Position numbers and translations under genes: made by a program. 64,000 nucleotides of DNA from Verrucomicrobiales bacterium (GTDB lineage Bacteria; Verrucomicrobiota; Verrucomicrobiia; Limisphaerales; UBA11320), in contig JAEUHE010000183.1 in the NCBI GenBank assembly GCA_016793885.1, positions 1-64,000 on the forward strand. The letters are read 5' to 3'. Of the stretch, positions 5,501 through 24,139 are shown piece by piece (within the stretch, counting starts at the first letter, position 1; each line of letters starts with the position of its first letter). Under the pieces are notes generated by a model. It was not told the origin of the DNA. It ran no database searches and saw only the letters and a program-made list of their open reading frames with translations.

Positions 5501-8050
5501 CGACTGGGGAAGGAGGTCCCACTGCGCGATTTCAAAACCCTCTCCCAAGCCATGCCTTTTCTGCGTGAATCGTTCGAAACGTACCGCGCCTTCGCCTCAG
5601 CCAGCACCGGCGAGATGTTCGGGGATCGCCTTAAGGCGACTACCATCCACACAGTCAACTGGCTCGATTCCACCCTATTCCTCAACCGCGGCACCCGATT
5701 CGCCGCCCAGAGCCTCCCCATCGAAGCGCAATTCTCACCCGCGTTCGCCGTTTGCGTTGGCGATGCGAATGGCGATGGCCACGAAGATGTTTTCCTCAGT
5801 CAGAACTTCTTCGGAGTAGATCGCGAAACCGGCCGCTACGACGGTGGCCGAGGACTGTGGCTCCAGGGCGATGGGCAAGGAGGATTCACGGCGGTTGCCC
5901 CCCGTGAATCAGGCGTGCAGGTCTACGGAGAGCAACGAGGCGCCTCCCTAGGGGACTTCGATGGCGACGGCAGATTGGACTTGGTCGTGACCCAGATGGG
6001 AGCCAGCACCAGGGTCTGGCGCAATAGGAGCGCTCAACCGGGTCTGCGCATCAGCCTGAAGGGGCCAGCCGAGAATCGGAACGGCTTTGGAGCTCAACTC
6101 CGCTTCGTTCAGGGAACTCGGAGCGGGCCGATCCATGAGCTGCACTGTGGATCGGGATTCCTGTCCTCAGAAAGCCCAGTCGTGGTCCTCGGCTGGCCGA
6201 AGGGTCCAGCGCAGCTGTGGGTTCGCTGGCCCGGCGGAAAGACCATGCTGAAGGATGTGCCCGCCGGCACCCTGAATCTTCAGGTGAGTTTCGAGGCCAC
6301 CACGACACCCCCAGCTTCCAACCCGGATCCCGCAACCGCACAACCTCCCCGACTGCCCGGCTATTCGCACGAAGCCAAAAAGCGTCTCATCGAGCGATTG
6401 CCCAAACCCATGTTCCGGGAGGTTTCCAGGGAGGTCGGCTTGAACTTTCGCCACTCGAGCAACCCAGCCTCCATTCCCAAACGCGCTGTCCTGGAGATCC
6501 CCATGGACATCGCGGGAGGAGGCGTATCCGCCGGTGACTACGATGGAGACGGGTTCGACGATCTCTTCTTCGCGGGCTTCGGGGGGGGCCGACTCTTTCA
6601 CAACGAAGCTGGCCTACGGTTTACCGATGCCACCGCAAGCGCCGGACTGGCGCTCACCGGGGAGAGCCGGGCGGCCTACTGGGTGGACTACGACAACGAC
6701 GGTGACCTGGATCTGTTCATCACCGGAGTGGCTCAACCCTGCCGGCTCTTTCAGAACTTGGGAGGCGGCCGTTTCGCTGACGTGAGTGACGAATCGGGTT
6801 TCTCTAGGCATGCAGACATCACCCACGAAGCCGTTTGGTTCGATGCCGACAACGACGGCTGGCTCGATGTCTACACGGCCAGTTTCGGTCGATGGGACCA
6901 GGGCCATGGACCGATCCGCAGCCAGCAGAATACCAACGCTGAACCCAACCGACTCTATTACCATCGCGTCGAAGGTGGGCGCCATCGCTTCGAAGACATC
7001 GGGCCGCAAGCGGGGGTCAACGACACCGGCTGGACACACTCGGTGGGAGCTTGGGATTTCGATCGCGACGGAAAGCCGGATCTCTTCTCGTTGAACGACT
7101 TTGGAAACGCCCGGATCTATCGGAATCTGGGGCAGCTGAAATTCCAGGAATGCAGCGAGCAAATCCAGTTTCAACCGCTCAACAATGGGATGGGATTCTC
7201 CGTCATGGATTTGGATCGAGACGGAAGTTTCGAAGCCTTCGTATCGGAGATCAGCATACCCGTGTATCAGGAAGGCCAGGCGATCCGGTATCGGATGGAT
7301 CCAGGAACCATTACCCTTCCCGATGACACGCTGCATTTCCTGTCCGTCACCGTGAACAACCGCCTCTACACTGAAACTGGACGCGGCACCCTGACCAACC
7401 GCTTCGCTTCGCTGTTCGAGCCCGCCGAGATGGGATGGTCCTGGGATGGCAGCGCCATCGACTACGACAACGACGGGACGCTGGATTTCTCGATCCTGAA
7501 CGGCACCGAGGAGCGCACCCCTCGCCTGAAGGGAGAGCGACGCGAGATGCACCTGGCGCAGGCCCGCTTCATCAACCGCTATGCCAACGAGCCCAACCTG
7601 TTTTTCATGCACCAGGAAGGCCATTGGTATCATGTGGGAGATTTCTCCCAGACGGACTATGCGGGCAATTCCCGTGGCTGCGCCGTGTTCGACTTCGATG
7701 GCGACGGAGATCTAGACGTGGCCATCAATGATTTCGAGGCACCCTGCAAACTCTTCAGAAACGAACAAAACCTCGGCAACTCCTGGATCCGCCTTCAACT
7801 TATCGGACGAAGATCCAACCGCAATGCAATCGGTGCCCGCGTAGAGCTCCAGGACAGCCGGGGTGAGCGCCATCACGCGTTAGTCGTCTCACGAAAAGGT
7901 TTTCTATCTCAAGATCCGATCACTCTCCACTTCGGCCTCGGCAAAGCGGAAGGAGTCACGAACGGGGTCATTCACTGGCCGAGCGGTGCGACGCAGAGCC
8001 TGGGCGTTCTCGCTGGACGAAAGAAACACCAGATCGAAGAACCGCGCTAA
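2555..8050 (+). CDS. Giant exported CRTAC1-like protein: three FG-GAP/VCBS propellers each with ASPIC/UnbV domain
   Basis: The protein has 1831 residues. A TTG start gives a leader with a hydrophobic stretch (SIPLLLALTLNAGTLDL). Calcium-binding-type repeats of the form D-x-N/D-x-D-G-x-x-D-L occur throughout, for example DVNGDGWCDLYF, DIDNDGDLDLYV and DYDNDGDLDLFI, as in FG-GAP/VCBS beta-propellers. Three ASPIC/UnbV-like segments end successive modules, near residues 580-650, 1150-1240 and 1740-1825 (GSRIEV..., NGFGAQLRFV..., NAIGARVELQ...). Each is followed by a W-x-S/G-G-A/K motif (VTWRSGAV, VRWPGGKT, IHWPSGAT). The usual family member has one such module in 500-700 residues, so this is a tandem triplication or fusion. 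The likely site is the cell surface or periplasm; the ligand is unknown. No ATG precedes the propeller in frame, so the start is uncertain. Confidence 0.88.
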   Translation: MNAPTLQPTRASFKTRSIPLLLALTLNAGTLDLHSAQPGGWLEGEGFRSQPLRVAGPGPGKAGFSKMPASETGLNFTNILSLAQASKNRILYNGSGVAAGDVNGDGWCDLYFCRLEGPNQLYLNRGGWKFELSSANETIACEGQFSSGACLADLDGDDDVDLLVSSIGKGVRSFLNDGTGKFQESTAGSGLAQQFGSHSMAFADIDNDGDLDLYVVNYRTTTIKDGGLTRFGLKREGNRIIVPPEHRDRFRILKNGDDISAVEIGEPDLLYLNDGHGTFTLSSWTEGRFLDEAGDPLKEAPHGWGLSAMFHDVNADGAPDLYVCNDFFSPDRLWLNDGKGTFRSAPGLTLRKTPLSSMAVDFADINRDGWDDFFVVDMLSRQAVDRQTERSNFENALVPWWGWPLDINAMDSRPPVQRNTLFLNQGDGRYTEIGQLAGLEASGWSWGCTFVDVDLDGYPDVLVPNGHGQNAIDSDVLKARGRRERELGEAAAQEPWPALRTPNVAFRNQGDLTFEEVGKAWGFDLPGISNGMVVSDLDNDGDLDVALNNLNEPATLLRNDATGSRIALRLRGTAPNTQGIGSRIEVSGFGAPQSQEVLAGGRYLSGDDPLRVFATGSRTNSLSIQVTWRSGAVSRITQVSPDHAYLIQEPARAAATVVASPSPAAAAPPLRTWFEESTPPLRHQHVVSETGGDARQPLLPRNLSHSGPGVTWADLNSDGQLDLVVGAGKGTTPGIFINNRRGSFNPVQAPAFQLQSPEDLSGIVCWATAGSTNRLLMGISSHQAVSPDHGSMLEFVLTGQGPERLPNWEGGEINPGPLAMGDIDGDGDLDLFVGGLSVPGRYPRATPSRLYRQSGGRFSADTGNTKILSQAGLVNGAVFTDLDADGLPELVLACDWGPVRVFQNRGGQFTEATTSLGLDRWIGWWTGVSAGDFDGDGRMDLVAANWGRNHKYQAHLNHGLRIYSGDLDENGTWDIVEAYLEPRLGKEVPLRDFKTLSQAMPFLRESFETYRAFASASTGEMFGDRLKATTIHTVNWLDSTLFLNRGTRFAAQSLPIEAQFSPAFAVCVGDANGDGHEDVFLSQNFFGVDRETGRYDGGRGLWLQGDGQGGFTAVAPRESGVQVYGEQRGASLGDFDGDGRLDLVVTQMGASTRVWRNRSAQPGLRISLKGPAENRNGFGAQLRFVQGTRSGPIHELHCGSGFLSSESPVVVLGWPKGPAQLWVRWPGGKTMLKDVPAGTLNLQVSFEATTTPPASNPDPATAQPPRLPGYSHEAKKRLIERLPKPMFREVSREVGLNFRHSSNPASIPKRAVLEIPMDIAGGGVSAGDYDGDGFDDLFFAGFGGGRLFHNEAGLRFTDATASAGLALTGESRAAYWVDYDNDGDLDLFITGVAQPCRLFQNLGGGRFADVSDESGFSRHADITHEAVWFDADNDGWLDVYTASFGRWDQGHGPIRSQQNTNAEPNRLYYHRVEGGRHRFEDIGPQAGVNDTGWTHSVGAWDFDRDGKPDLFSLNDFGNARIYRNLGQLKFQECSEQIQFQPLNNGMGFSVMDLDRDGSFEAFVSEISIPVYQEGQAIRYRMDPGTITLPDDTLHFLSVTVNNRLYTETGRGTLTNRFASLFEPAEMGWSWDGSAIDYDNDGTLDFSILNGTEERTPRLKGERREMHLAQARFINRYANEPNLFFMHQEGHWYHVGDFSQTDYAGNSRGCAVFDFDGDGDLDVAINDFEAPCKLFRNEQNLGNSWIRLQLIGRRSNRNAIGARVELQDSRGERHHALVVSRKGFLSQDPITLHFGLGKAEGVTNGVIHWPSGATQSLGVLAGRKKHQIEEPR

Positions 8051-9683: not shown

Positions 9684-10976
9684 TCACGCCTCAGCCACGA
9701 GGGTGCGACCCTGGGCGTCTCGATGAAGCCGGGTCAAGAATCGGCACTCTTCATCCAAATCGATGCCGTGATCCGCTTTCAAGCGCTCGGTTACCGCTTC
9801 GCGCCAGGCAGACGGAAACAACGACGCTCCGTGAATGGCACCCACGATAGCACCGACTAGCTGGGCGTAGGAGTCGGTGTCGTGTCCCCATTCCATGGAA
9901 AGTTGAAGCGCTGCCAGAGGATCGTAGTCCGCCAACTCCAGACACGCGAACGCCACCACAAACGGGACCTGGGCCTCCCACTTCGTGGTCTGGGCGAATT
10001 CGTGATCGAGCGAGACGAACAATCGGGCGGGCTGACCCTCAGCCGATTTCACCATCGACGCCGCCAGGTTCAGCCATCGGTTGACCGCTCGCTCGGACCA
10101 TCGGATCTTCTGAAACCGAAGCGGGTCGGTCTCGCGCATGGACTTCACCAGGGCCTGATAGGGAGCCGATTGAGCGCCGGGTTCATAAGAAACCGTAAGC
10201 GCGTGTGCCAGGCCCGCCACCAAAGCCGCGTTTAAATCCTTCCCGATGCCATTGTCGAAAAATCCCAACGTATACGCCGCCCGATAGGCCGCCGTCGGCT
10301 GCCCAGCATACAACACCGCCAACGGCAAGAGAGTCATCTGACCACAGCACGTGGCCAACCCTTGCCACATTCGCTCCGGTGGCAGCGCCTGCAGCAGATC
10401 TCGTTCTCCCAAAACCCATCTCGCGCCCAGCTGCCACTCCTCCAGCCAGTCTTTGGCCAGCTCCGCGTAACCGGCCCGGCCCACGACCGCCGCAGAACTG
10501 GGCCACGTCAGAAAGGCTTGCGCTAGATCCTTCACCGTGAACGGCCATCGCTTTTCACGATCAACCTGATGCAGCCCATGAAGCAGCACCAACTTGTGGC
10601 GGGAGTCGTCGGTGATCGTTCCGGGCAAGGAGTTGGGGTTCCATTGTCCATAGGACTCCGTCCCCGGACGCAGATCCCGATAGGATCGTAGCCGTAACCG
10701 AGCTGCGGCAGCCGCCCGCCCATCCGCATCCAACGTTTCACCATTCCGCCAGACCTTGGGGGGATCCGTCAGACCCTGAACCCGCTCACGAGCCTGGAAC
10801 TCAATAGGCCCGCCCAATGCGTCACCAATGACCGTTCCAAAAACCAGGCCTCGAATACGATCCCCCAAATCTACCGGCGGACGCGCATCGGCTCCGACAC
10901 CGAGCCGAGGAAGGGCACCCCACGCCAGACTCGCAGCGCCTAGAGTCAGAAATTTGCGCCGATGGATTCCTCTCAT
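9684..10976 (-). CDS. Exported ADP-ribosylglycohydrolase family protein
   Basis: A 430-residue protein. The N-terminus has a twin-arginine-like signal (RRKF at 6-9, then TLGAASLAWGALP). Family signatures follow: GTVIGDALGGPIEF (47-60), TDDSRH (122-127, first metal-ligand site) and HDTDS followed by GAIVGAIHG (365-383, second metal-ligand site). This is the ARH/DraG all-alpha fold that binds two metal ions and cleaves ADP-ribose linkages. The gene starts inside the stop of the upstream kinase gene (4-nt overlap, 10973-10976), so the two are very probably translationally coupled. A Tat-type leader is unusual for this family, whose known substrates are cytoplasmic; the true substrate may be another N-glycoside. 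Confidence 0.87.
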   Translation of the reverse strand: MRGIHRRKFLTLGAASLAWGALPRLGVGADARPPVDLGDRIRGLVFGTVIGDALGGPIEFQARERVQGLTDPPKVWRNGETLDADGRAAAAARLRLRSYRDLRPGTESYGQWNPNSLPGTITDDSRHKLVLLHGLHQVDREKRWPFTVKDLAQAFLTWPSSAAVVGRAGYAELAKDWLEEWQLGARWVLGERDLLQALPPERMWQGLATCCGQMTLLPLAVLYAGQPTAAYRAAYTLGFFDNGIGKDLNAALVAGLAHALTVSYEPGAQSAPYQALVKSMRETDPLRFQKIRWSERAVNRWLNLAASMVKSAEGQPARLFVSLDHEFAQTTKWEAQVPFVVAFACLELADYDPLAALQLSMEWGHDTDSYAQLVGAIVGAIHGASLFPSAWREAVTERLKADHGIDLDEECRFLTRLHRDAQGRTLVAEA

Positions 10977-12088
10977 AAGTTCCCGGACTGCTGAGCTTCA
11001 ACGAGGCGCAGCAGGCTCTGCTGCGGCTCAAGAACCATCTGCCGAGAGATCCGAAGCAATTCAGACTTCCGATCCAACCCGTATCCCACCGGCAATTGCG
11101 CGTAGCCAATGATGCGCCGCATGATCTCCACGCCCGCCAGTTGGATCATGAGCCTGTCGTCGAATGGGGCAGGAGCGAGATACGCGCGACGCCAGAGATC
11201 ACGCAGATGCGCGGGTTGGCTAGAGAGGAGGAGATGAGCAAGAAAAACACCCACATCGAATTCCGCCGGGCCGTAAAATCCGAATTCAGGATCGATCACC
11301 CGCGGCCCACCGGCAGTGCGAAGCAGGCTGCCAGGATAGAAATCGCCATGCAGCAGGCTGTCGCCATCCGCAAGATAAACTTCCCGCCCCAAACGTGCCA
11401 CCTCGCGCACATAGCCTTGATCGCCCTTCAAGATCCGGCTTTGCGCCGCCAGCCCATCCGTGATCGCATCCAGATCCAAACCATTGTCGACGGCTAGCGG
11501 AATCTCGAAGAGATGAGCATGATTCAAGGCGCGCATCTCGCGATTGGGCAGACGTGAGCCGTTGGAGTTGCGCCTCTCATCACGGTGAAGGCGCGACAGA
11601 AATTCGGCCAAAACCTCGATCTCCCGAGAGGAGATCTGCTGCCCGCGATACATCCCAGTATAGTCGCTGGCGATTCCCAGATCCTCGAGCACGATGACAT
11701 GTGCCACCGGATCAAACGCTATCAGACGCGGCATGAGGCTCGCCAATGGGGGGTGCGCGTCCACGATGCGATAGAACTCCGCCTCGCTGAACGCACGCTC
11801 CCAGGGAGCGGCAAACTGAGGATACTTTTCAACCCAGGGCCGCGCCTGCTTCACAATCAGCGAGCTGTCTGTGGTCTCGACCCTTAGGGTGCAGTTCATA
11901 TTGCCATCCCCGGCCCTGGCGGCTGACCGAACCTTTTGACCCGGACTCAGGATTTTCAGCGACAACAGGTAACCCTCAAGTTCCGATGGCTCCCCGGCAT
12001 CGAGGAAGAATAGGTTCGGGCAGGTTTCCTGCCATCGGGCGCGCGGTGTAAGCTTCATAGAACCAGGTGTCGTGAGACCCTTAATCAT
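10973..12088 (-). CDS. Methylthioribose-kinase-like / APH-fold small-molecule kinase
   Basis: A 371-residue protein. It has an aminoglycoside-phosphotransferase fold with details of 5-methylthioribose kinases: LRVETTDSSLIVKQARPWVE (ATP-binding lysine), a long WERAFSEAEFY helix, the catalytic loop HGDFYPGS (247-254) and the metal-binding IDPEFGFYGPAEFDVG (265-280). MtnK phosphorylates methylthioribose in methionine salvage, but no other mtn gene is present here. Pairing with an ADP-ribosylglycohydrolase by a 4-nt overlap suggests a route in which a ribosyl group is released and then phosphorylated. The mismatch between an exported hydrolase and a cytoplasmic kinase is unresolved. The kinase fold call is firm; the substrate is not. 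Confidence 0.75.
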   Translation of the reverse strand: MIKGLTTPGSMKLTPRARWQETCPNLFFLDAGEPSELEGYLLSLKILSPGQKVRSAARAGDGNMNCTLRVETTDSSLIVKQARPWVEKYPQFAAPWERAFSEAEFYRIVDAHPPLASLMPRLIAFDPVAHVIVLEDLGIASDYTGMYRGQQISSREIEVLAEFLSRLHRDERRNSNGSRLPNREMRALNHAHLFEIPLAVDNGLDLDAITDGLAAQSRILKGDQGYVREVARLGREVYLADGDSLLHGDFYPGSLLRTAGGPRVIDPEFGFYGPAEFDVGVFLAHLLLSSQPAHLRDLWRRAYLAPAPFDDRLMIQLAGVEIMRRIIGYAQLPVGYGLDRKSELLRISRQMVLEPQQSLLRLVEAQQSGNL

Positions 12089-14197: not shown

Positions 14198-15415
14198 CTA
14201 GAGTGAGTTCCCATTGTCGAGCTGGACTGCTTCTCGCATCTGTTCGAGGAAGTTTGGTAGAGCAGATTGAACGCGATTCCAATTCGGGATGGGCGGAGTT
14301 CCGAGCGGATCTTCCATAAATGCCTTGGCCGCAGCTCGAATACTGCGCACGAAGGTGTTAACCGCTACCTCCTCTTCGTGACGATCGTAAGAAAGACCGT
14401 TGATCAGGGCGTCCGCGTTGTAATGCCGCAAGGTATCCTCGGCTCTCCGGATGTAGGCGCTGTAGAGCGTGTCGAAGAGTCCGGCGTCGAGTTTGATTCC
14501 TTCTGCCGCCATCACCCGAAAGATTGTCTTGGCAATGTCGGTTGCCATCCGATTGAGACCCTTGTCCACATCGCGAGCCGAGAGCTCCTGGTGCTTGTGG
14601 TCATATCGATCCGAAAGCCCCGACTGGCAAATTGCCCGGGGTGCAGAGTTGCGATAAACCTCCGCCAGCATCCCTACCTCCAGACCCCAATCAGAGGGCA
14701 CGCGAACGCGCCGCACCAAGTCAAGGTCCAGGCAAATTTCACCCGAAAGGGGATAACGGAAGGTGTCCAAATAGATCAGCAAGGGTTGTGAACCCAGGAT
14801 GCTCTCCAACGAACGAATGAGCGGCGTAAACATCAACCGCATGACTCTCCCGTGCAGCCGAGTGCTATAGCGCGCCGTGTAGCCCTTGCAAAAATCGAGT
14901 CCCAGGTTCGGATGGGCGACCGGGTAGCACAGCCTGGCCAGCATTTCTCTCGAGTACGTCAGAATATCGCAATCGTGTGACGCAACGATGGTGGCCCTCT
15001 CTGCGGCCAGGACATATCCAAAACAGGTCCACACGTTACGCCCCTTGCCGGGGAGCCCCAACTCGAGGTCAGCATCCGCGAGTTGAGCCTGAAGCCGTTG
15101 CATCCGCGGCCCATCATTCCACAACAAGACGGGCTTCTGAGGCAGGGATGAGAAGAGCTTCTGAGCGCGCTTCCAGTCCCGCGAGCTAGCTCCATCGATA
15201 CCAACGACAATTTGGCTGAGATACTTCACTTGCTTCAGCTCCTTCAAGATGAGCCGGAGCGCAGTCGTCCCGAGTTCCCGAACATGGCATGGAAGCACCA
15301 GCGCAATGGGCGTTTCCTCCGCAAACTTCGCCAACTCACCCTCCATTCGCGTGAGGTTGGTAGGGCCGAGACGATGCAAGGTGGCGATGGCGCCGGTTTG
15401 AAAAAAGTCAGACAT
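14198..15415 (-). CDS. gpgS: Glucosyl-3-phosphoglycerate synthase-like glycosyltransferase (GT81)
   Basis: A 405-residue protein. The N-terminus (DFFQTGAIATLHRLG) matches the start typical of this family. A GT-A core follows: IALVLPCHVRELGTTALR, VVGIDGASSRDWKRA, LPGKGRNVWTCFGYVLA (121-137) and the D-x-D-type metal site SHDCDI (146-151). Acceptor-side motifs are LCYPVAHPNLGLDFCKGY, YPLSGE, PSDWGLEVGMLAEVYR and SDRYDHKHQELS. GpgS joins UDP- or GDP-glucose to 3-phosphoglycerate, the first step to the compatible solute glucosylglycerate and its mannosylated derivative. It is the last gene of a minus-strand run after MscS (21-nt gap), which fits osmoadaptation. A HAD phosphatase and a GT4 enzyme that could complete the pathway lie on the opposite strand 2-4 kb away. 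No signal peptide, so cytoplasmic. Confidence 0.8.
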   Translation of the reverse strand: MSDFFQTGAIATLHRLGPTNLTRMEGELAKFAEETPIALVLPCHVRELGTTALRLILKELKQVKYLSQIVVGIDGASSRDWKRAQKLFSSLPQKPVLLWNDGPRMQRLQAQLADADLELGLPGKGRNVWTCFGYVLAAERATIVASHDCDILTYSREMLARLCYPVAHPNLGLDFCKGYTARYSTRLHGRVMRLMFTPLIRSLESILGSQPLLIYLDTFRYPLSGEICLDLDLVRRVRVPSDWGLEVGMLAEVYRNSAPRAICQSGLSDRYDHKHQELSARDVDKGLNRMATDIAKTIFRVMAAEGIKLDAGLFDTLYSAYIRRAEDTLRHYNADALINGLSYDRHEEEVAVNTFVRSIRAAAKAFMEDPLGTPPIPNWNRVQSALPNFLEQMREAVQLDNGNSL

Positions 15416-15436
15416 AAAATCGATGGGGCTGCACGC

Positions 15437-16696
15437 TCAGGAAGCACTCTGCTGGGGCTTCTGCTCCTGTTTAAGGTGAAGTGTTTGGGTGGGAAAGGCG
15501 AACTCGATTCCGGCTTGATCGAAGCGTTCCTTGAGCCGCAAGTTCATCTGCTGAAGTCCGGCCAGGTAAGCTTTGTAGTCCGTATTACCCCACCAGTGCA
15601 CCACGAGGATGTTGAGGGAAGAGCTCTCGAATCGGTTAAAACTAACAATTAAATCGGAGGTGTTTTCATGCTGCCGATAAACTTCCTCAATGATCCTGAC
15701 CGCTGCATCGACGCCCTGGGTTGAAGTGTCATAAGTGATCCCGATGTTCATCACGGTTTTGATGTTGGGTCGGGCGGTGATGTTGACAATCGTCGCATTG
15801 CCCATCGTTTTGTTGGGGACGGTAACCAGATGACCGTCGAGGTTCCTCACTCGAGTGCTTCGGAACCCGATCGTCTCGACCGTGCCGTCGACTGCATCCA
15901 GCTGAATTCGGTCTCCCACTTTGAAAGGCTTGTCCACCAAAACAGCCACAGCACCGAACAGGTTGGCCAGGGTATCCTGGGCCGCAAGACCTACAGCCAG
16001 CCCTCCAATGGATAGAGAAGCTATCAAACCGGTGACGTCAAAACCCAAGTTTTGAGAGGTCACCAGCGCCACGACGATGATAATGAAGAGTTTCAAACTC
16101 TTGCCAATCAGCGGCAAGAGTTGCTTGCCGAACTGCTCATTCTCGGGCGTCGTCGTCCGTTGGTACCACAAGCCCACCACCAGATCCATCGCCTTCAGGA
16201 GAACGTAGGTGATGGAAACCGCCACAATGATCTTGGAGGACTTAGAAAACACCTCCGCAAGCACATCGGGCCAGGAGTAGACCCGCATCCCGATGTGCAG
16301 CAGGATCACGAAGGATATGATCTTGACCGGCCCACGGAGCAACTGGACTAGCAGGTCATCCAGTTTCGTCGAGGTGCCCTCTGCCCATCGTCTGACTCGT
16401 CCCGCAATGAACAGGTCCAGCACCTTGGACACGTAAAAAGCCAGGAAGATGTAGATGAGCGAAGCCATGTATTGCCACAGCGGGATCCCCGCGACCGGCG
16501 CCTGATGGAGCCACTCGATCCGATCGAGCCCAAAGGTTAACCAAATCTGCGGGCTTGCGGCCGACGTGGTGGGCAACGATGGAGGTGAAACGGGAACTCC
16601 GTTAGACTGGGCGTCCACGGCGATCACGCCGCTCAGAGCCGAGATCACCATCACGAGACAACACATGCAAAGGCTACTGATTCGACCGGTGATCAT
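15437..16696 (-). CDS. MscS-family mechanosensitive channel with signal peptide
   Basis: Reading from ATG 16696 gives 419 residues. This start overlaps the stop of the upstream gene in an ATGA and has GGGAGGAGG about 10 nt ahead, so it is preferred over an in-frame start 57 nt upstream. A signal-peptide-like stretch (CMCCLVMVISALSGVIAVDA) is followed by three membrane segments and the pore-lining MscS helix, GLIASLSIGGLAVGLAAQDTL (split by one residue for length). The beta domain follows (KPFKVGDRIQLD, GTVETIGFRSTRVRNLDG, VPNKTM), then an alpha/beta C-terminus. Such channels open on hypo-osmotic shock to release solutes. Its place in an operon with a compatible-solute synthase gives matched synthesis and release functions. 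Confidence 0.92.
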   Translation of the reverse strand: MITGRISSLCMCCLVMVISALSGVIAVDAQSNGVPVSPPSLPTTSAASPQIWLTFGLDRIEWLHQAPVAGIPLWQYMASLIYIFLAFYVSKVLDLFIAGRVRRWAEGTSTKLDDLLVQLLRGPVKIISFVILLHIGMRVYSWPDVLAEVFSKSSKIIVAVSITYVLLKAMDLVVGLWYQRTTTPENEQFGKQLLPLIGKSLKLFIIIVVALVTSQNLGFDVTGLIASLSIGGLAVGLAAQDTLANLFGAVAVLVDKPFKVGDRIQLDAVDGTVETIGFRSTRVRNLDGHLVTVPNKTMGNATIVNITARPNIKTVMNIGITYDTSTQGVDAAVRIIEEVYRQHENTSDLIVSFNRFESSSLNILVVHWWGNTDYKAYLAGLQQMNLRLKERFDQAGIEFAFPTQTLHLKQEQKPQQSAS

Positions 16697-17193
16697 CTCC
16701 GTCGTGCCTCCTCCCCGTTCGGTAGACTGGCGCGCCTTCGAGCCGACTTCCACTCCTCGGACTCGGAAGCACCAGTCGCATCTCTCGTGGAGGCTCGTGA
16801 TCGGAGGTCAGCGGAGGACGTTGATGAATCCAGCATGAGGGTTACCCCAATGTGGGCCACCGCCATCAAGGTTCCGACGGTAATTACAACCATCACAGTC
16901 GCCAGGATCGCCAGGTTTCGAGTCCCGGCGACCGGGTCGCCTGCCGGCAGCCAGTTCATGACGGCTTGCGATATCATGACGAACGCCGTGGCGGAAAGAG
17001 TCAACATGGCCCAGCCACGCTGGGGCTTCCCCCAAAAGCCGAGTAGTGCCCATAGCACACTGAAACCGCCGCCCAGCAAGCCCACAATCCCACTGAGGCG
17101 GCTCAAATCGGGAACCGTCTGAAGTGCTAGGAATCCCAGCAAAATCGAAAGTAGGCCGTGAGAAAGAAGCACCGAAGGAACAAGTTTTTTCAT
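16693..17193 (-). CDS. Small integral membrane protein upstream of MscS
   Basis: Function not recognised. ATG 17193 gives 166 residues beginning MKKLVPSVLLSHGLLSILLG. An earlier in-frame start would add 38 residues rich in arginine and is less likely. Four hydrophobic segments follow: SVLLSHGLLSILLGFLAL, IVGLLGGGFSVLWALLGFW, MLTLSATAFVMISQAVMNW and LAILATVMVVITVGTLMAVA. A polar, arginine-rich tail (SSADLRSRASTRDATGASES) follows. Its TGA shares an A with the MscS start (ATGA), implying translational coupling. It may modulate the channel or simply share its regulation. Confidence 0.6.
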   Translation of the reverse strand: MKKLVPSVLLSHGLLSILLGFLALQTVPDLSRLSGIVGLLGGGFSVLWALLGFWGKPQRGWAMLTLSATAFVMISQAVMNWLPAGDPVAGTRNLAILATVMVVITVGTLMAVAHIGVTLMLDSSTSSADLRSRASTRDATGASESEEWKSARRRASLPNGEEARRR

Positions 17194-17307
17194 GGACCAA
17201 TCAGGGTTGTTGATCGCACGGATGCAAAGCACCACCGGCTCGTAGCGCCACCAGGCATCGACCCGCGCCCGCCGACGCTGCGACATGATGCGCCGCATCC
17301 TCGCCAA

Positions 17308-17818
17308 TCAAGTCAGTGTAGAGAGTGGCGGCCCGACCACTCCGATTGCCTTCAGAATCTAGCGACTCCGAACCCTTAGGCCGCCCGATGCCCAGCGGAC
17401 ATCAACCGGCTCCGGACGAACGAACCACTCGGTTCAATGGATGAGGAAAACCAAATCTCTCAGGGAGGCATCGATGGGGAGCAGCTTCCCCTGAATGAAT
17501 ACCGGCTCGGCTGCGGAGAGGATCGTGAGATCCGAAAGCCCAACAAAGCCGAACAAAAGGTCAAACAATTCCAATGAGGAGACATGGCCACAGTTTACCC
17601 GACGTTATGGAATGGCGGCCCGACCATTCATGTAGCCTCCAGGATCATTAGACCCTGAACCCTTTGTGAAGCTGCGACGGACACTGAAGCTTCAATGTTC
17701 ACAATAGACAGTCTGCCACCCGTCGCTGTCAAGTGTCACATTCCAGTCTCCCACCACGAAACACAGCGCATCGAGAAATCTCTTCGCTCCCTGTTGGTCC
17801 CGCGCTTACAGTGTCCCC
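17308..17818. other. Gap with no convincing gene; possible short minus-strand frame
   Basis: This separates the divergent osmotic operon and the GT4 gene, so promoters for both are expected here but no clear -35/-10 pair stands out. One minus-strand frame, 17434-17586, reads as a protein-like 50-residue peptide (SLELFDLLFGFVGLSDLTIL, then KLLPIDASLRDLVFLIH) but lacks an ATG. It may be a relic. A GACCCTGAACCCTT string near 17650 resembles part of the repeat at 8240. Confidence 0.45.
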
Positions 17819-19414
17819 GTGCAACTGGTCATCCTCCACTATCACTTCCGCACCGGAGGAGTCCGCCGTGTCATCGAGTTGGGGACCGCGGCGCTGTCCA
17901 GCGCATTGGGCTCCTCGCTTACGGAGGTAGTGCTGCTAGGAGGTGAAGCCCCTGCTTCACTCTGGCTCCGAATGTTCCGTGAACAGATCCGCCCAGCCAA
18001 GGTGCATCACCACATCGACTCCTCTCTGGGCTATCTCGCTGAACAGACCTCCCCCCTCCCTCGCATCCGCTCTCGCCTCAGAAACTTCTTCGACATGCTG
18101 GCCGGTCGGATCGATGTTTCGAACTGCCTGGTTTGGGCACACAATCTCGGGCTCGGTCGAAATCTGCTGCTGGCCCGCGAGTTGACTCAGTTCTGCGAAC
18201 GGACGAATGTCCGACTCCTGCTGCATCACCATGATTGGTGGTTTGATCATCGGTGGAGTCGCTGGAGCGAGATGAAGAAAAGTGGCTATCGATCCATCCA
18301 GGAAGTCGCGAAAACACTCCTACCGAACAAACCATTCATCAGGCACGCGACGATCAATCATCGAGATTTCTCCGTCCTGAATCGGCACTTTCGTGGGAGA
18401 GTGGGGTGGCTGCCTAACCCCAGCTCGCCAGGCTCACCCCCCTCACCGGCACGACAACGACAGACCACCCGATGGATACAGAAATCATTAGATCAGCGTC
18501 CTGGTCCGATCTGGCTTTTGCCCTGCCGGATGCTCCGGAGAAAGAATGTTTGCGAAGCCCTTCTGTTGACCCGTTGGCTCCGTCCCGAAGCATGGCTGAT
18601 AACGACCGCTGGCGTTAGCTCGGCCGATGAGTCTCGTTATGCGGAGCAGCTGGCACTTGCGGCTCAGAAATCAGGTTGGCATCTTCGCTTGAGCCTGCTG
18701 GACCACGCGGGTGAGAGAGCCCCCAGCGTGAGGGAACTGATGGCCGCCAGCGAAGCAATACTCCTGACCTCCATCCAGGAAGGATTCGGCCTCCCGTACC
18801 TCGAGGCAGCCGCGGCTCAACGTCCTTTGATCTGCCGCACACTCCCCAATGTCGCTCCGGATCTGGACCGTCTCGGGTTTCAGTTCCCGCAAGCGTACCA
18901 GGACATCCTCATCGACACGCATCTGTTCGATTGGTCCCGTGAGCAGGCGCGTCAGCAAGAGCGCTTCAAACAATGGCGAACAGCGCTTCCCCAACGAGTG
19001 CACAGTCTGGTTCATTCCCCAACCTGGCTGTCACGGGCCACCGCCCCATCATCCCTGCCGTTCAGTCGTTTGACATTGGAAGCTCAGATCGAGGTACTGT
19101 CCCAGCCCGTCGCCCAATCTTGGCGACGGTGCGCGCCGCTCAATCCCTTCTTGTCGAAATGGCGACGACGCGCGGCCGAGGGACGCCTGCAGTCGCCACC
19201 ATGGCCAGCCCAGGCCGGACGCCGGCTTTCCGGAGCTGCCTACGCCGAGCGGCTGCTCCGTCTCGCCGAGACGGGTTCTCCGCCCGCCGCACCCGCCAGA
19301 GCCCCCAGGGCCAGAAACGTCGCGGATTCAATAGAATCACAACGCTGTCAGCACGAGTTTATCCGGACGGCCTCGCGCCCCGATTCCATGTTCCCCCTCC
19401 TCTGGACCCGCTGA
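17819..19414 (+). CDS. GT4-type (GT-B) glycosyltransferase
   Basis: The protein has 531 residues from a GTG start that immediately opens the first Rossmann strand of a GT-B enzyme (LVILHYHFRTGGVRRVIELG). Residues 100-170 carry LVWAHNLGLGRNLLLARELT and LLLHHHDWWFDH. The donor domain includes IWLLPCRMLRRKNVCEALLL, WLITTAG and the E-x7-E-type motif SIQEGFGLPYLEAAAAQRPL (EGFGLPYLE). The C-terminal 100 residues are proline/arginine-rich and less typical. It is followed after 1 nt by a HAD phosphatase and then by a transporter overlapping it by 4 nt. Given the nearby GT81 gene, a role in extending glucosylglycerate (for example mannosylation) is a reasonable guess, not shown by sequence. Confidence 0.72.
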   Translation: MQLVILHYHFRTGGVRRVIELGTAALSSALGSSLTEVVLLGGEAPASLWLRMFREQIRPAKVHHHIDSSLGYLAEQTSPLPRIRSRLRNFFDMLAGRIDVSNCLVWAHNLGLGRNLLLARELTQFCERTNVRLLLHHHDWWFDHRWSRWSEMKKSGYRSIQEVAKTLLPNKPFIRHATINHRDFSVLNRHFRGRVGWLPNPSSPGSPPSPARQRQTTRWIQKSLDQRPGPIWLLPCRMLRRKNVCEALLLTRWLRPEAWLITTAGVSSADESRYAEQLALAAQKSGWHLRLSLLDHAGERAPSVRELMAASEAILLTSIQEGFGLPYLEAAAAQRPLICRTLPNVAPDLDRLGFQFPQAYQDILIDTHLFDWSREQARQQERFKQWRTALPQRVHSLVHSPTWLSRATAPSSLPFSRLTLEAQIEVLSQPVAQSWRRCAPLNPFLSKWRRRAAEGRLQSPPWPAQAGRRLSGAAYAERLLRLAETGSPPAAPARAPRARNVADSIESQRCQHEFIRTASRPDSMFPLLWTR

Positions 19415-19415
19415 T

Positions 19416-20135
19416 ATGAACCCACAAGCCATCATTTTCGACCTCTACAACACCCTGTTACGCGTAGCGCTGCCCAGGACCGATGCCGATGAAGAATGGA
19501 CGAAGCTCTGCAGCGAGATGCTAGGGTCGCCTCCGCCTCGGTCTCACCTCGAGTTCTCCCTGGCCTGCCGGGAAGCGGTCTCGAAAAAACAACAAGAGGT
19601 CAGAGCGCAGGGAATCGCCTTTCCGGAAGTCGACTGGCCTCAAATAGTAGCCACAGCCTTGCCCGCCTTCAGCTCACTCTCATCTCATCAGCAACGAGAA
19701 TTCATCCGACGGCAGATCGCCCTCGTTCACACGATCAGTCTCGTTCCGGAGGCGGTGGCCGTTCTGAAAAAGATGAGCGATCGCGGTGTTCTCCTCGGAA
19801 TCGCCTCGAATGCCCAAGCTTACTCCCTCAATGAACTCGCGGATGAACTGGCTCCCCATGGCCTTGGACTCAACCTCTTCGCGAAGGAACTCTGCTTTTG
19901 GTCTTTCGAACATGGATTTAGCAAACCGGATCCTCATGTGTTTCGCATACTCACCGCGCGCCTAGGCGCACGAGGCGTCGATCCGGACCGCGTTCTGATG
20001 GTCGGAGACCGATTGGACAACGATGTTGAACCCGCTAGGTCCCAGGGGTGGATGACCTGGCATATCACTCCTTCCCTCGATGACAGCTGGAAAGAGCTTC
20101 ATCTCGCACTCATCTCTAACCCCGTCTCCAGATGA
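19416..20135 (+). CDS. HAD-superfamily phosphatase
   Basis: A 239-residue protein with the four HAD motifs: IIFDLYNTLL (motif I, nucleophile Asp9), GIASNAQ (motif II, Ser131), GFSKPDPHVF (motif III, Lys170) and MVGDRLDNDVEPAR (motif IV, Asp198, with further Asp residues 201 and 203). The helical cap lies between residues 20 and 105. The Tyr at position +2 of motif I is that of the haloacid-dehalogenase/phosphatase branch. It follows the GT4 gene by 1 nt and overlaps the antiporter-like gene by 4 nt. As a candidate glucosyl-3-phosphoglycerate phosphatase it would complete the GpgS reaction; the family alone does not set the substrate. Confidence 0.82.
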   Translation: MNPQAIIFDLYNTLLRVALPRTDADEEWTKLCSEMLGSPPPRSHLEFSLACREAVSKKQQEVRAQGIAFPEVDWPQIVATALPAFSSLSSHQQREFIRRQIALVHTISLVPEAVAVLKKMSDRGVLLGIASNAQAYSLNELADELAPHGLGLNLFAKELCFWSFEHGFSKPDPHVFRILTARLGARGVDPDRVLMVGDRLDNDVEPARSQGWMTWHITPSLDDSWKELHLALISNPVSR

Positions 20136-21406
20136 CCCCATCCTCCTCCGAACTCCTGGCATCCGTCCTCTTCGGACTCGCGGTGCTGCACACCTTCTCC
20201 GTGAAACGATTTGCCCACTGGGCACACCACTATCCTCCGGGATCCGTGCAGCATCAACTTCTGCATTTCCTGGCGGAGACCGAAGTCGTCTTCGGGCTCT
20301 GGGCAGCGGCTCTGTTCATGGGCATCGCTGGATTGAAGGGATCGATTCACGACGCCGTCGCCTATGTGGAGTCGCTCAACTACACCGAACCGAAGTTTGT
20401 CCTGGTGGTCATGGTCGTGGCCGCGACACGCCCAGTGGTTACGTTGGCCGAGCAGTGCATCTCGCTGGCTGCACGTTGGCTGCCGGTTCGCGAGGGCATC
20501 GGGTTCTATTTGGCAGCGCTGATCCTGGGTCCGCTGCTCGGTTCGTTCATCACGGAGCCAGCGGCCATGACGTTGCTGGCCCTGCTGCTGAAGCGTCGCT
20601 ATTTTGATCGCGCCATCAGCCGAAGGCTGGCGTATGCCACCCTAGGCCTGCTTTTTGTCAACGTTTCGATCGGGGGCACGCTCACGCATTTCGCCGCTCC
20701 TCCGGTTCTCATGGTGGCGGCCAAATGGAATTGGGACATGGCGTTCATGCTGCAGACCTTCGGCTGGCGGGCCGCGGCCGCATGTGTCGTGTCGACCGTA
20801 GTCGTGGTTGGGCTCTTCCGAAAGGAACTCAGCGCCCTGGAGCCGGAGCGCCAGCCATCACGTCCCATCCCCGTGTGGTTGACGACCGCCCACCTGATGT
20901 TCTTGGCGGCAGTGGTGGGTTTCGCTCACCATCCCGATGTATTCTTCGGAGTGCTCATGCTCTTCTTGGGGCTGGTGACCGCCACACGCGAGCACCAGGA
21001 CGACCTCAAACTTCGCGAGGGGCTGCTGGTGGGATTCTTTCTCGCCGGCCTGGTCACCCTTGGATCGCTGCAGGCCTACTGGCTTAAGCCACTACTGACC
21101 AGTCTTAGCGGAAGCGCCTTGTTCTTTGGCGCAACCGGACTCACTGCGCTCACCGATAACGCCGCGCTCACTTACTTGGGTTCGCTGGTCGAAGGACTCT
21201 CGGACGAACTCAAGTATGCCCTGGTGGCCGGGGCGGTGACCGGAGGCGGTTTGACGGTCATCGCCAATGCGCCCAACCCCGCCGGAGTAGGCATTCTGCG
21301 GGACGCCAAGGTCTTCGAGGACGAGGGCATCAGTCCGTTAGGCCTGTTCCTGGGGGCATTGATGCCGACCACTGTTGCCATTCTGTTCTTTTGGATCTTG
21401 CACTAG
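20132..21406 (+). CDS. Putative Na+/H+ antiporter, multi-spanning
   Basis: A 424-residue protein with about 10-12 hydrophobic segments. It resembles the bacterial putative Na+/H+ antiporter family: a HFLAETEVVFGLWAAALFM block, repeated inverted motifs FITEPAAMTLLALLL and GLTALTDNAALTYLG, TLTHFAAPPVLMVAAKWNWD, and a glycine-rich VAGAVTGGGLTVIANAPNPA. The paired EPAAMT and TDNAALT motifs, each entering a membrane segment, are the kind of internal repeat seen in ion antiporters of the IT superfamily. The ATG overlaps the HAD stop by 4 nt. A cation P-type ATPase starts 6 nt after its stop, so the GT4-HAD-antiporter-ATPase run is probably one transcript for salt or ion stress. Transported ion is inferred. 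Confidence 0.72.
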   Translation: MTPSSSELLASVLFGLAVLHTFSVKRFAHWAHHYPPGSVQHQLLHFLAETEVVFGLWAAALFMGIAGLKGSIHDAVAYVESLNYTEPKFVLVVMVVAATRPVVTLAEQCISLAARWLPVREGIGFYLAALILGPLLGSFITEPAAMTLLALLLKRRYFDRAISRRLAYATLGLLFVNVSIGGTLTHFAAPPVLMVAAKWNWDMAFMLQTFGWRAAAACVVSTVVVVGLFRKELSALEPERQPSRPIPVWLTTAHLMFLAAVVGFAHHPDVFFGVLMLFLGLVTATREHQDDLKLREGLLVGFFLAGLVTLGSLQAYWLKPLLTSLSGSALFFGATGLTALTDNAALTYLGSLVEGLSDELKYALVAGAVTGGGLTVIANAPNPAGVGILRDAKVFEDEGISPLGLFLGALMPTTVAILFFWILH

Positions 21407-21412
21407 ATCGTC

Positions 21413-24139
21413 ATGGAGAATCGAAGCACAATTTCCTGGCACGAGTTGTCGACCGCAGAAGTCGCACGCCTGCTCGAGGTCGATTTTGCGGCCGGACTCT
21501 CGGCGGATGAGGTTTCGAGCCGACGCCAGAAGTCCGGCTTCAATCGCGTCACCTCTAGGCCCGCGACGCCGGCGTGGCTCAAATGGATGCGGCAGTTCAA
21601 TCAGCCGCTGGTTTACATCTTGCTGGTGGCGGTCGGGGTCACGGCCTTCCTTGGCGAATGGGTGGATTCGTCGGTCATCTTCGGCGTCGTGCTGATCAAT
21701 GCCGTGGTCGGTTTCCTGCAGGAGGCGAAAGCCGAGAAAGCGATCGAGGCGCTCGCCAAGATGGTCGCTACCGAAACCACCGTGCGGCGCGACGGACGGA
21801 AGTCGCGCATCCACTCGGAGCAACTGGTGCCGGGGGATGTGGTCCTGCTTCAGGCCGGCGACCGCGTGCCCGCCGACCTGCGCCTGTTCCAGGTGCGGAA
21901 CCTGCAAGCGGATGAGTCTGCCTTGACCGGCGAATCGCTTCCCGTGACCAAGCATGTTGGCGCCCTCGCGCGGGACACGATCCTGGCTGATCGGAAGAAC
22001 CTCGCCTACACCGGCACCCTCGTCACGAGCGGCGAGGCGGCAGGCGTGGTGTGGGCCATCGGAGACGAAACGGAAACCGGACGAATCTCGCATCTCATTT
22101 CCAGCGCGGTGGAGTTGTCCACCCCGTTGACGAAAAAAATCGCGCAGTTCAGCAAACTGGTGCTGTGGGTCATTGTTGGACTGGCAGTAGCCACCTTCGC
22201 GCTCGGTGTGGGACGAGGTGAGAAGCCAGTCGAGATGTTCATGGCGTCAGTGGCTCTGGCAGTTGGGGCAATTCCTGAAGGCCTTCCGGCGGCGGTCACC
22301 ATTGTCCTGGCCATCGGCGTTTCTCGCATGGCCAAGCGGCAGGCCATTATCCGTAAGTTGCCCGCCGTCGAAACCCTGGGCAGCACCACCATCATCTGCT
22401 CCGACAAGACCGGCACCCTTACTGAGAACCAGATGACGGTACAGGAGATCTTCGCGGGGGGAAGGCTATACCAGGTGACGGGGGCCGGCTATGAACCCGC
22501 AGGTGAGATTCTCTTCGATGCGAAGTCGGCAAATTTGCAGGAACATCCCGCGCTCGCGGAATGCCTGCTCGCCGGAGTGCTGTGCAATGCGTCGCAACTC
22601 CTGCGCGAGGACGGACGACTCCGAGTCCAGGGCGACCCCACCGAGGCGGCGCTGCTCGTCGCCGCCGAAAAAGGCGGAGTCATTCACGCCGACGTGCACA
22701 GCCGGACGCCAGTCATTGACACGATCCCCTTCGAGTCCGAGCACATGTTCCGCGCCACCTTGCATGAAGCACGCGAGGGCCGGGTGATTTACAAAATCGG
22801 CGCGCTGGAACGATTGCTGGAACGTTGCACCGACGCGCTCGGGGATGACGGGGCGCTCACCACACTCGATAAAGACGCCGTCCACCGTGCCGCCGAGGCC
22901 ATGGCAGTGAGAGGACTCCGCGTCCTGGCCATGAGCCGGCGTGAAGTGGAGTCGCACCACGCCAGCCTTGAGCACTCCCATGTGACGCAGGGATTCACCT
23001 TTCTGGGCTTGCAGGCGATGATGGATCCCCCGCGGCCGGCCGCCATCGCGGCCGTACAGCAGTGCCAGCGGGCTGGCATTGCCGTGAAGATGATTACCGG
23101 CGACCATCTTGTCACCGCGCGCGCCATCGCCGGCAAGATCGGGTTGAAAGGTCGAGAGGAGCACGGGAGCCTAGTCGCCTTGTCTGGACGGGAGTTAGAG
23201 GCGCTTTCCGATCAAGAGCTTCTCAATGTCGCTGAACACACCGCCGTTTTCGCTCGGGTCGCGCCCGAGCAGAAGCTGCGCTTGGTGAAAGCGCTGCAGG
23301 CCCGCGGGCATGTCGTTGCCATGACCGGCGATGGAGTGAACGACGCCCCGGCACTCAAGCAGGCCGACATCGGGGTGGCCATGGGCATCAGCGGAACCGA
23401 TGTCGCCAAGGGTGCTGCGGCCATGATCCTCACCGATGACAATTTCGCCAGCATCCAAGCAGCCGTGGAGGAAGGCCGCGGAGTATTCGACAATCTGACC
23501 AAATTCATCGTCTGGACCCTGCCGACCAATGCAGGCGAGGCGATGATCCTATTGTCAGCGATCGTCCTGGGGACTCAGCTGCCGGCCGTGCCGGTGCAAC
23601 TTTTGTGGGTGAACATGATGACGTCCATCCTGCTTGGGCTGATGCTGGTCTTCGAGCCCAAGGAGCACGACTTAATGGAGCGTCCACCTCGGCGGCCTGA
23701 GCGCCCACTGCTGACCTACCCACTGATCATGCGCACCGGGCTGGTGTCGCTCATCATGCTAGCCGGGGCGTTCTGGCTGTTCTACTGGGAGCTAAAAATG
23801 GAGGGTGAAACCCTGGCTGAAGCGCGCACCGCCGTCATCAACGTCATCGTGCTCGTGGAAATTGCTTACCTGTTCAGCTGCCGCTCCCTCAACCACTCCG
23901 TCTTTACCATTGGACTGTTCACCAATCGGTGGGCCATCGGTGGCGCGCTGGCAATGCTCTCCGCGCAACTCCTGTTTACTTACGCTCCGGTGATGAACAG
24001 GCTGTTCCACACCGCACCGATCAGCGCGGAATCCTGGCTGCGGATCATTCTGGTGGCGGTTGCCGCCTTTGCTGCGGTGGAGTTAGAAAAGTGGATCCGG
24101 TTCGGCGGGCGCCGCGGAGAGCATACCATCCCCGAATGA
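21413..24139 (+). CDS. P2-type cation-transporting ATPase
   Basis: A 908-residue protein of normal length for the PacL/SERCA-like class. Visible features: N-terminal cation-ATPase domain; TGES actuator loop (172-175); membrane helix 4 PEGLP (288-292); phosphorylation site DKTGTLT starting at Asp331; nucleotide-binding domain to about 560; TGDGVND hinge starting at 638; then six C-terminal helices. Helix 5 has TNAGEAMILLSAIV and helix 6 LLWVNMMTSILLGLML. The PEGLP motif is that of Ca2+- and Na+-type pumps, but helix 6 lacks the N-x-x-T-D sequence of SERCA calcium site II (NMMTS here), so calcium is not certain. It pumps a cation across the inner membrane using ATP. Last gene of the plus-strand run, ending 8 nt from the convergent ABC operon. 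Confidence 0.9.
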   Translation: MENRSTISWHELSTAEVARLLEVDFAAGLSADEVSSRRQKSGFNRVTSRPATPAWLKWMRQFNQPLVYILLVAVGVTAFLGEWVDSSVIFGVVLINAVVGFLQEAKAEKAIEALAKMVATETTVRRDGRKSRIHSEQLVPGDVVLLQAGDRVPADLRLFQVRNLQADESALTGESLPVTKHVGALARDTILADRKNLAYTGTLVTSGEAAGVVWAIGDETETGRISHLISSAVELSTPLTKKIAQFSKLVLWVIVGLAVATFALGVGRGEKPVEMFMASVALAVGAIPEGLPAAVTIVLAIGVSRMAKRQAIIRKLPAVETLGSTTIICSDKTGTLTENQMTVQEIFAGGRLYQVTGAGYEPAGEILFDAKSANLQEHPALAECLLAGVLCNASQLLREDGRLRVQGDPTEAALLVAAEKGGVIHADVHSRTPVIDTIPFESEHMFRATLHEAREGRVIYKIGALERLLERCTDALGDDGALTTLDKDAVHRAAEAMAVRGLRVLAMSRREVESHHASLEHSHVTQGFTFLGLQAMMDPPRPAAIAAVQQCQRAGIAVKMITGDHLVTARAIAGKIGLKGREEHGSLVALSGRELEALSDQELLNVAEHTAVFARVAPEQKLRLVKALQARGHVVAMTGDGVNDAPALKQADIGVAMGISGTDVAKGAAAMILTDDNFASIQAAVEEGRGVFDNLTKFIVWTLPTNAGEAMILLSAIVLGTQLPAVPVQLLWVNMMTSILLGLMLVFEPKEHDLMERPPRRPERPLLTYPLIMRTGLVSLIMLAGAFWLFYWELKMEGETLAEARTAVINVIVLVEIAYLFSCRSLNHSVFTIGLFTNRWAIGGALAMLSAQLLFTYAPVMNRLFHTAPISAESWLRIILVAVAAFAAVELEKWIRFGGRRGEHTIPE

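Follow-up and report, generated by a model that had tools for sequence, protein, structure and literature searches.

A divergent Verrucomicrobiota locus with a predicted route to a sugar-glycerate osmolyte and its release

The locus described here lies in a stretch of 64,000 nucleotides, called the window below, from a Verrucomicrobiales bacterium (assembly GCA_016793885.1, contig JAEUHE010000183.1, positions 1 to 64,000; the genome comprises 8.7 Mb in 274 contigs and is 96% complete). It centres on a gene for a GpgS-like glucosyl-3-phosphoglycerate synthase of family GT81. A sequence-only reading had described this gene, an MscS channel gene and a gene for a small membrane protein as facing a run of GT4 glycosyltransferase, HAD hydrolase, antiporter and ATPase genes on the opposite strand, and had taken the whole for a compatible-solute and osmotic-release locus. 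Every one of these genes is present on the strand then given, and the set recurs together in many genomes, beyond chance. The features are as follows.

14198-15415, minus strand: GT81 GpgS-like glucosyl-3-phosphoglycerate synthase, 405 aa (NF040724, 328 bits; active-site motifs)
15437-16696, minus strand: MscS-type mechanosensitive channel (PF00924, E 6e-21; PF21082; PF21088), probable start ATG 16696
16693-17193, minus strand: small membrane protein, 166 aa, of no family; homologues begin at an internal Met
17194-17818, no strand: divergent intergenic region, 625 bp, holding a 55-bp imperfect direct repeat
17819-19414, plus strand: uncharacterised GT4 glycosyltransferase, 531 aa (GT-B/GT4 fold, motifs)
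19416-20135, plus strand: HAD-IA family hydrolase, 239 aa, with a DxY motif I (PF00702)
20132-21406, plus strand: putative Na+/H+ antiporter, Na_H_antiport_3 (PF07399, 583 bits)
21413-24139, plus strand: P-type ATPase of the Ca2+ (PMR1/SERCA) type (TIGR01522, 675 bits, below the NCBI equivalog cut-off of 798)

On the minus strand, the stop codon of the small membrane protein gene and the start codon of the MscS gene overlap as ATGA and the GT81 gene follows 21 bp further on, an arrangement that suggests a single unit. Among the plus-strand genes, GT4 and HAD are 1 bp apart, HAD and antiporter overlap by 4 bp, and the ATPase gene lies beyond position 21406, where the locus had been taken to end. 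The start previously assigned to the small membrane protein, 17307, is an upstream TTG; as the homologues align from ATG 17193, this is the probable start, and the divergent gap, placed earlier at 17308-17818, keeps its right edge and gains a new left one.

The GT81 protein matches NF040724 (GpgS_Meth) over its full length, residues 5-401, under that model's equivalog cut-off of 700 bits, and reaches 55 bits against NF010496, for which the cut-off is 262. We therefore call it GpgS-like, a member of the same superfamily with a subfamily of its own. Relatives at 38-76% identity keep its GKG loop and its HDxD, GE, W-G-x-E-x-G and HKH motifs, which can be aligned with the crystal sequences of GpgS and MpgS; the active-site residues of GpgS are thus in place, which bears out the original assignment. 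The family is also found in Acidobacteria, Nitrospirota, Deltaproteobacteria, Planctomycetota and Aminicenantes, among others. In the window genome this gene is the sole intact gpgS copy. Broken fragments of a second gpgS and of a GH13_18 phosphorylase gene lie on contig C200 (L092 8865-11476) and a further gpgS fragment on contig C69 (L091, about 3316-3516), apparently the remains of a decayed second locus. A different arrangement is seen in the congener G003, where a 534-aa protein (L116 8810-10414, minus strand) joins a GpgS-like domain (NF010496, 175 bits) to a SerB-like HAD part with the normal DxDGT motif; similar GT81-HAD fusions occur at L135 2702-4069 (G006) and L066 977-2481 (G033), with a PF07399 antiporter as neighbour in L116 and an orthologue of the window's MscS in L066. 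This fusion looks like a synthase and phosphatase in one protein.

The association of the GT4 gene with GpgS is supported. Among 97 genomes of the window's order, GpgS occurs in 22 and the GT4 in 17, all of which also have GpgS (Fisher p 7e-15, in a test that ignores the relatedness of the genomes). A profile search of 387 genomes of the phylum found divergent GT4s in 70, and at 17 of the 20 such loci that were inspected a GpgS of the mycobacterial type lies within 0.5 kb of the GT4 gene, overlapping it by 4 bp in seven cases; one of these synthases clears the NCBI equivalog cut-off, with 384 against 262 bits. The GT4 profiles of the window-type and divergent groups match each other at E 6e-79, and the presence of one GT4 family beside two types of GpgS means that the linkage holds though the GpgS type differs. 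The HAD gene follows directly downstream of the GT4 gene, mostly with a 4-bp overlap, at every locus of the order whose contig continues, and an HAD homologue lies within 0.9 kb downstream at 10 of the 20 divergent-GT4 loci, the HAD profiles of the two groups matching at E 1.6e-41. Conserved gene order and phylogenetic profile thus place both enzymes with GpgS rather than in unrelated pathways and, on sequence evidence, the GT4-HAD pair is a new part of the locus. Among 50 GpgS-bearing genomes drawn from a cross-phylum sample of 80 GpgS loci, the GT4 was not found in 49, the sole exception being a Verrucomicrobia genome. The GpgS-GT4 pair is kept, 17 bp apart, in the strongly reduced, single-contig verrucomicrobial genome G132 of 0.9 Mb (L238 7766-10185), while its congener G153 retains a GT4 fragment only.

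What kind of glycosyltransferase is the GT4? Its AlphaFold2 model (pLDDT 89) has the GT-B/GT4 fold and aligns with GT4 enzymes at VIA-align Z scores of 17-22, with a root-mean-square deviation of about 3.5-4.7 over about 300-370 residues. Its invariant residues R240-R241-K242 and E321-x7-E329 correspond to the R..K and E-x7-E motifs typical of GT4. The structural matches spread over HepE, BshA, PimA, MshA and SPS and single out no donor sugar. It had been read as the second glycosyltransferase of a glucosylglycerate or mannosylglucosylglycerate pathway, with MggS as a reference for comparison. We reject its identity with MggS: it scores 33 bits against NF041101, where the cut-off is 640, and our tree sets the MggS-like proteins apart from the GT4s accompanying window-type GpgS and, as a third group, from those accompanying the mycobacterial type, a few long branches being placed unsurely.

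The HAD protein, put forward earlier as a candidate phosphatase, keeps its link with the GpgS locus; its expected family and catalytic motif were not found, which leaves the proposal weaker than claimed. HAD phosphatases carry DxDx(T/V) as motif I, the second Asp serving as general acid-base (PMC8069645), and the occurrence of DxY in its place makes a phosphatase activity doubtful and the role of the protein unproven. Motif IV keeps the acidic residues of the Mg type, as GDRxDND in 14 of 15 close homologues and as GDRIDSD in the fifteenth. The AlphaFold2 model (pLDDT 94) resembles haloacid dehalogenases and phosphatases alike, so the fold does not settle the chemistry. TIGR01486, the MPGP model (HAD-IIB, GpgP/MpgP), has no match to the window HAD at E 0.01, and we dismiss a classical GpgP/MpgP on grounds of family and motif. 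Nor does the window genome hold any other MPGP/GpgP phosphatase at E 1e-15; the family is absent from 96 of the 97 order relatives, the exception being G088, where it adjoins that genome's own GpgS. In the cross-phylum sample, a neighbour family of this type adjoins GpgS at 43 of the 80 loci, in many other phyla (the count rests on family clusters of neighbour proteins, FAM1). With the usual phosphatase absent, the HAD is left as the linked candidate.

The channel is the second element whose company with GpgS is not confined to the window. Its TM2/3, beta and C-terminal domains (PF21088, PF00924, PF21082) all score over the cut-offs, and orthologues at 57-61% identity stand beside GpgS in G018 and G092 (L085/L081); the orthologue beside the fusion gene in L066 shares 75%. 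More broadly, a mechanosensitive channel gene lies within 5 kb of GpgS at 43 of the 80 cross-phylum loci, spread over many phyla, and within 1.5 kb at 37 of these, while the flanks further away, 489 kb in all, hold just five such genes, so that the pairing noted in the window proves to be a recurrent one. The small membrane protein has no Pfam match; homologues lie upstream of GpgS in three other genomes (L071, L074 and, in two copies, L073).

The divergent gap had been proposed as a control region for the whole locus. The arrangement itself recurs, with GpgS and GT4 directly divergent, 94-396 bp apart, in nine other relatives, while a promoter signal above chance is missing: sigma-70-like sites number three over 12-25 kb, against 3.0 expected, and none falls in the gap. 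Two stretches of 55 bp in the gap, 17323-17377 and 17610-17664, form an imperfect direct repeat (75%), whose 13-bp core, GGCGGCCCGACCA, occurs nowhere else in the window; the repeat may represent regulator sites or a dispersed repeat.

What, then, might this locus do? From its genes, their order and co-occurrence, and the motifs and folds of the products we infer, with a probability of roughly 60%, a Verrucomicrobiota locus for the biosynthesis and release of a sugar-glycerate osmolyte. Judged by family and motifs, GpgS would form glucosyl-3-phosphoglycerate by glucosylating 3-phosphoglycerate, with a nucleotide sugar as the donor. The conserved linkage suggests that the GT4 would add a second sugar to this compound or to its dephosphorylated form, and that the HAD hydrolase would act on a phosphorylated intermediate. 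The solute would accumulate under osmotic stress and be released on down-shock through MscS and its small membrane partner, whose genes are coupled to that of GpgS, and the presumably co-transcribed Na+/H+ antiporter would adjust ions. The osmolyte reading thus survives in outline; MggS has dropped out of it, and the phosphatase assignment and the exact solute are not established from sequence.

In the Petrotoga GpgS/MggA route, a phosphorylated intermediate is extended by a second glycosyltransferase before a late phosphatase acts. The predicted design resembles this route, with GT4 and HAD families of its own. With the GpgS/MggA/MggS routes to mannosylglucosylglycerate in Petrotoga mobilis it would share GpgS, a second glycosyltransferase, the need for a phosphatase and the logic of a glycerate-linked disaccharide; it differs in its HAD family and in its GT4, which both the NCBI model and the tree set apart from MggS and which the GpgS genomes sampled in other phyla lack. 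Mannosylglucosylglycerate is a solute of Rhodopirellula baltica (PMC3694870). With the canonical gpgS-gpgP pathway of picocyanobacteria, where the osmolyte is tied to salinity (PMC9361551), the window locus shares the synthase and, as predicted, the osmolyte role, whereas its genome lacks the MPGP-type phosphatase and has the extra GT4-HAD pair. Many relatives add an MggS-like GT4 (206-220 of 640 bits) and a GH13_18 sucrose-phosphorylase-like gene near the locus, the latter adjoining GpgS; glucosylglycerate phosphorylases belong to GH13_18, and their genes are commonly located close to glucosylglycerate genes (PMC11009771). The window genome differs in having no MggS-like gene and GH13_18 only as the broken fragments on another contig. 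Finally, ectoine clusters carry MscS genes, according to Czech et al. 2022 as cited in PMC13342039; they share with the window the packing of solute biosynthesis genes with a mechanosensitive channel, and differ from it in the solute, here a predicted sugar-glycerate, the window locus having an additional small membrane protein.

Several observations weigh against this assignment. Motif I of the HAD reads DxYxT, not DxD, without exception among the 15 close homologues and the nine divergent ones in which the motif was located. One relative, G015, has GpgS and an HAD orthologue without the GT4, and in three GpgS genomes (G033, G047 and G049) the HAD and the MPGP phosphatase are both missing. 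The window GT4 has no close relative among characterised enzymes. Of four congeners searched, none has GpgS or GT4, which makes the locus dispensable in the genus.

One rival reading concerns ion transport. It is quite conceivable, at somewhat less than even odds, that the antiporter and the ATPase are chance neighbours behind the HAD gene and give the locus no ion-transport role, since no order relative has either gene adjoining GT4-HAD and PF07399 antiporters are mostly not near the window's genes. Against this, the 4-bp overlap of the HAD and antiporter genes suggests co-transcription, and a PF07399 antiporter lies beside GpgS/GH13_18 in G016 (L073), adjoins the GT81-HAD fusion gene of G003 and, in G030, is oriented divergently to the MscS orthologue; TrkH-TrkA moreover accompany MggS-like genes in G029 and G085. 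The antiporter's link to the locus, which beside a GT81 gene amounts to those first two relatives, thus recurs weakly. That of the ATPase is absent within the order, where the gene occurs in no relative's GpgS or GT4 locus; it is near GpgS in L162, L171 and L207, all from other phyla.

A second alternative, tenable but rather doubtful, concerns the order of the enzymatic steps: the HAD could be a replacement GpgP that converts glucosyl-3-phosphoglycerate to glucosylglycerate, with the GT4 then extending the free glucosylglycerate in the manner of MggS. The genome-wide absence of the canonical MPGP/GpgP agrees with this, as does the lack of the HAD in G088, the only MPGP-bearing relative; the retention of GpgS and HAD in G015, which has no MggS-like gene either, likewise favours a GpgP-like role. 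On the other side, the gene order of the HAD is coupled to the GT4 and not to GpgS, tight coupling that favours action on the GT4 product; G047 and G049 (82-83% complete) manage with GpgS and no HAD, and motif I is DxY. On balance, the phosphorylated route, with the HAD acting on the GT4 product, is slightly ahead.

Unlikely, in our estimation, is the more far-reaching possibility that GpgS, the GT4 and the DxY HAD make an undescribed glycerate glycoside, neither glucosylglycerate nor mannosylglucosylglycerate, as a common osmolyte of Verrucomicrobiota, the HAD step then being something other than ordinary phosphate removal. Less probable still is that GpgS and the GT4 make no small osmolyte but the beginning of a longer glucan or lipopolysaccharide primer, comparable to the methylglucose lipopolysaccharide of mycobacteria: across most of the phylum the GT4 gene has a mycobacterial-type GpgS next to it, and in mycobacteria GpgS works in the biosynthesis of that polymer, according to PMC4555173 and PMC2581804, yet no methyl- or acyltransferase genes of the corresponding type were identified among the neighbours examined, and GH13_18, MggS-like genes, mechanosensitive channels and Trk K+ uptake fit a small solute.

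The literature searched records little on which compatible solutes Verrucomicrobiota use. The locus provides a specific, testable route in which one conserved GT4, often joined by the HAD, goes with a GpgS of one or the other type; the DxY motif of the HAD poses a concrete question for enzymology. Mechanosensitive channels generally accompany glucosylglycerate synthase genes across phyla, so that the pairing with MscS known from ectoine clusters now includes a further solute.

Elsewhere in the window, an ADP-ribosylglycohydrolase gene overlaps by 4 bp with a gene for an APH-fold kinase like methylthioribose kinase (122 of 275 bits) at 9684-12088 on the minus strand, and positions 2555-8050 on the plus strand encode an 1831-aa protein with 12 FG-GAP_3 repeat stretches and three ASPIC/UnbV domains.

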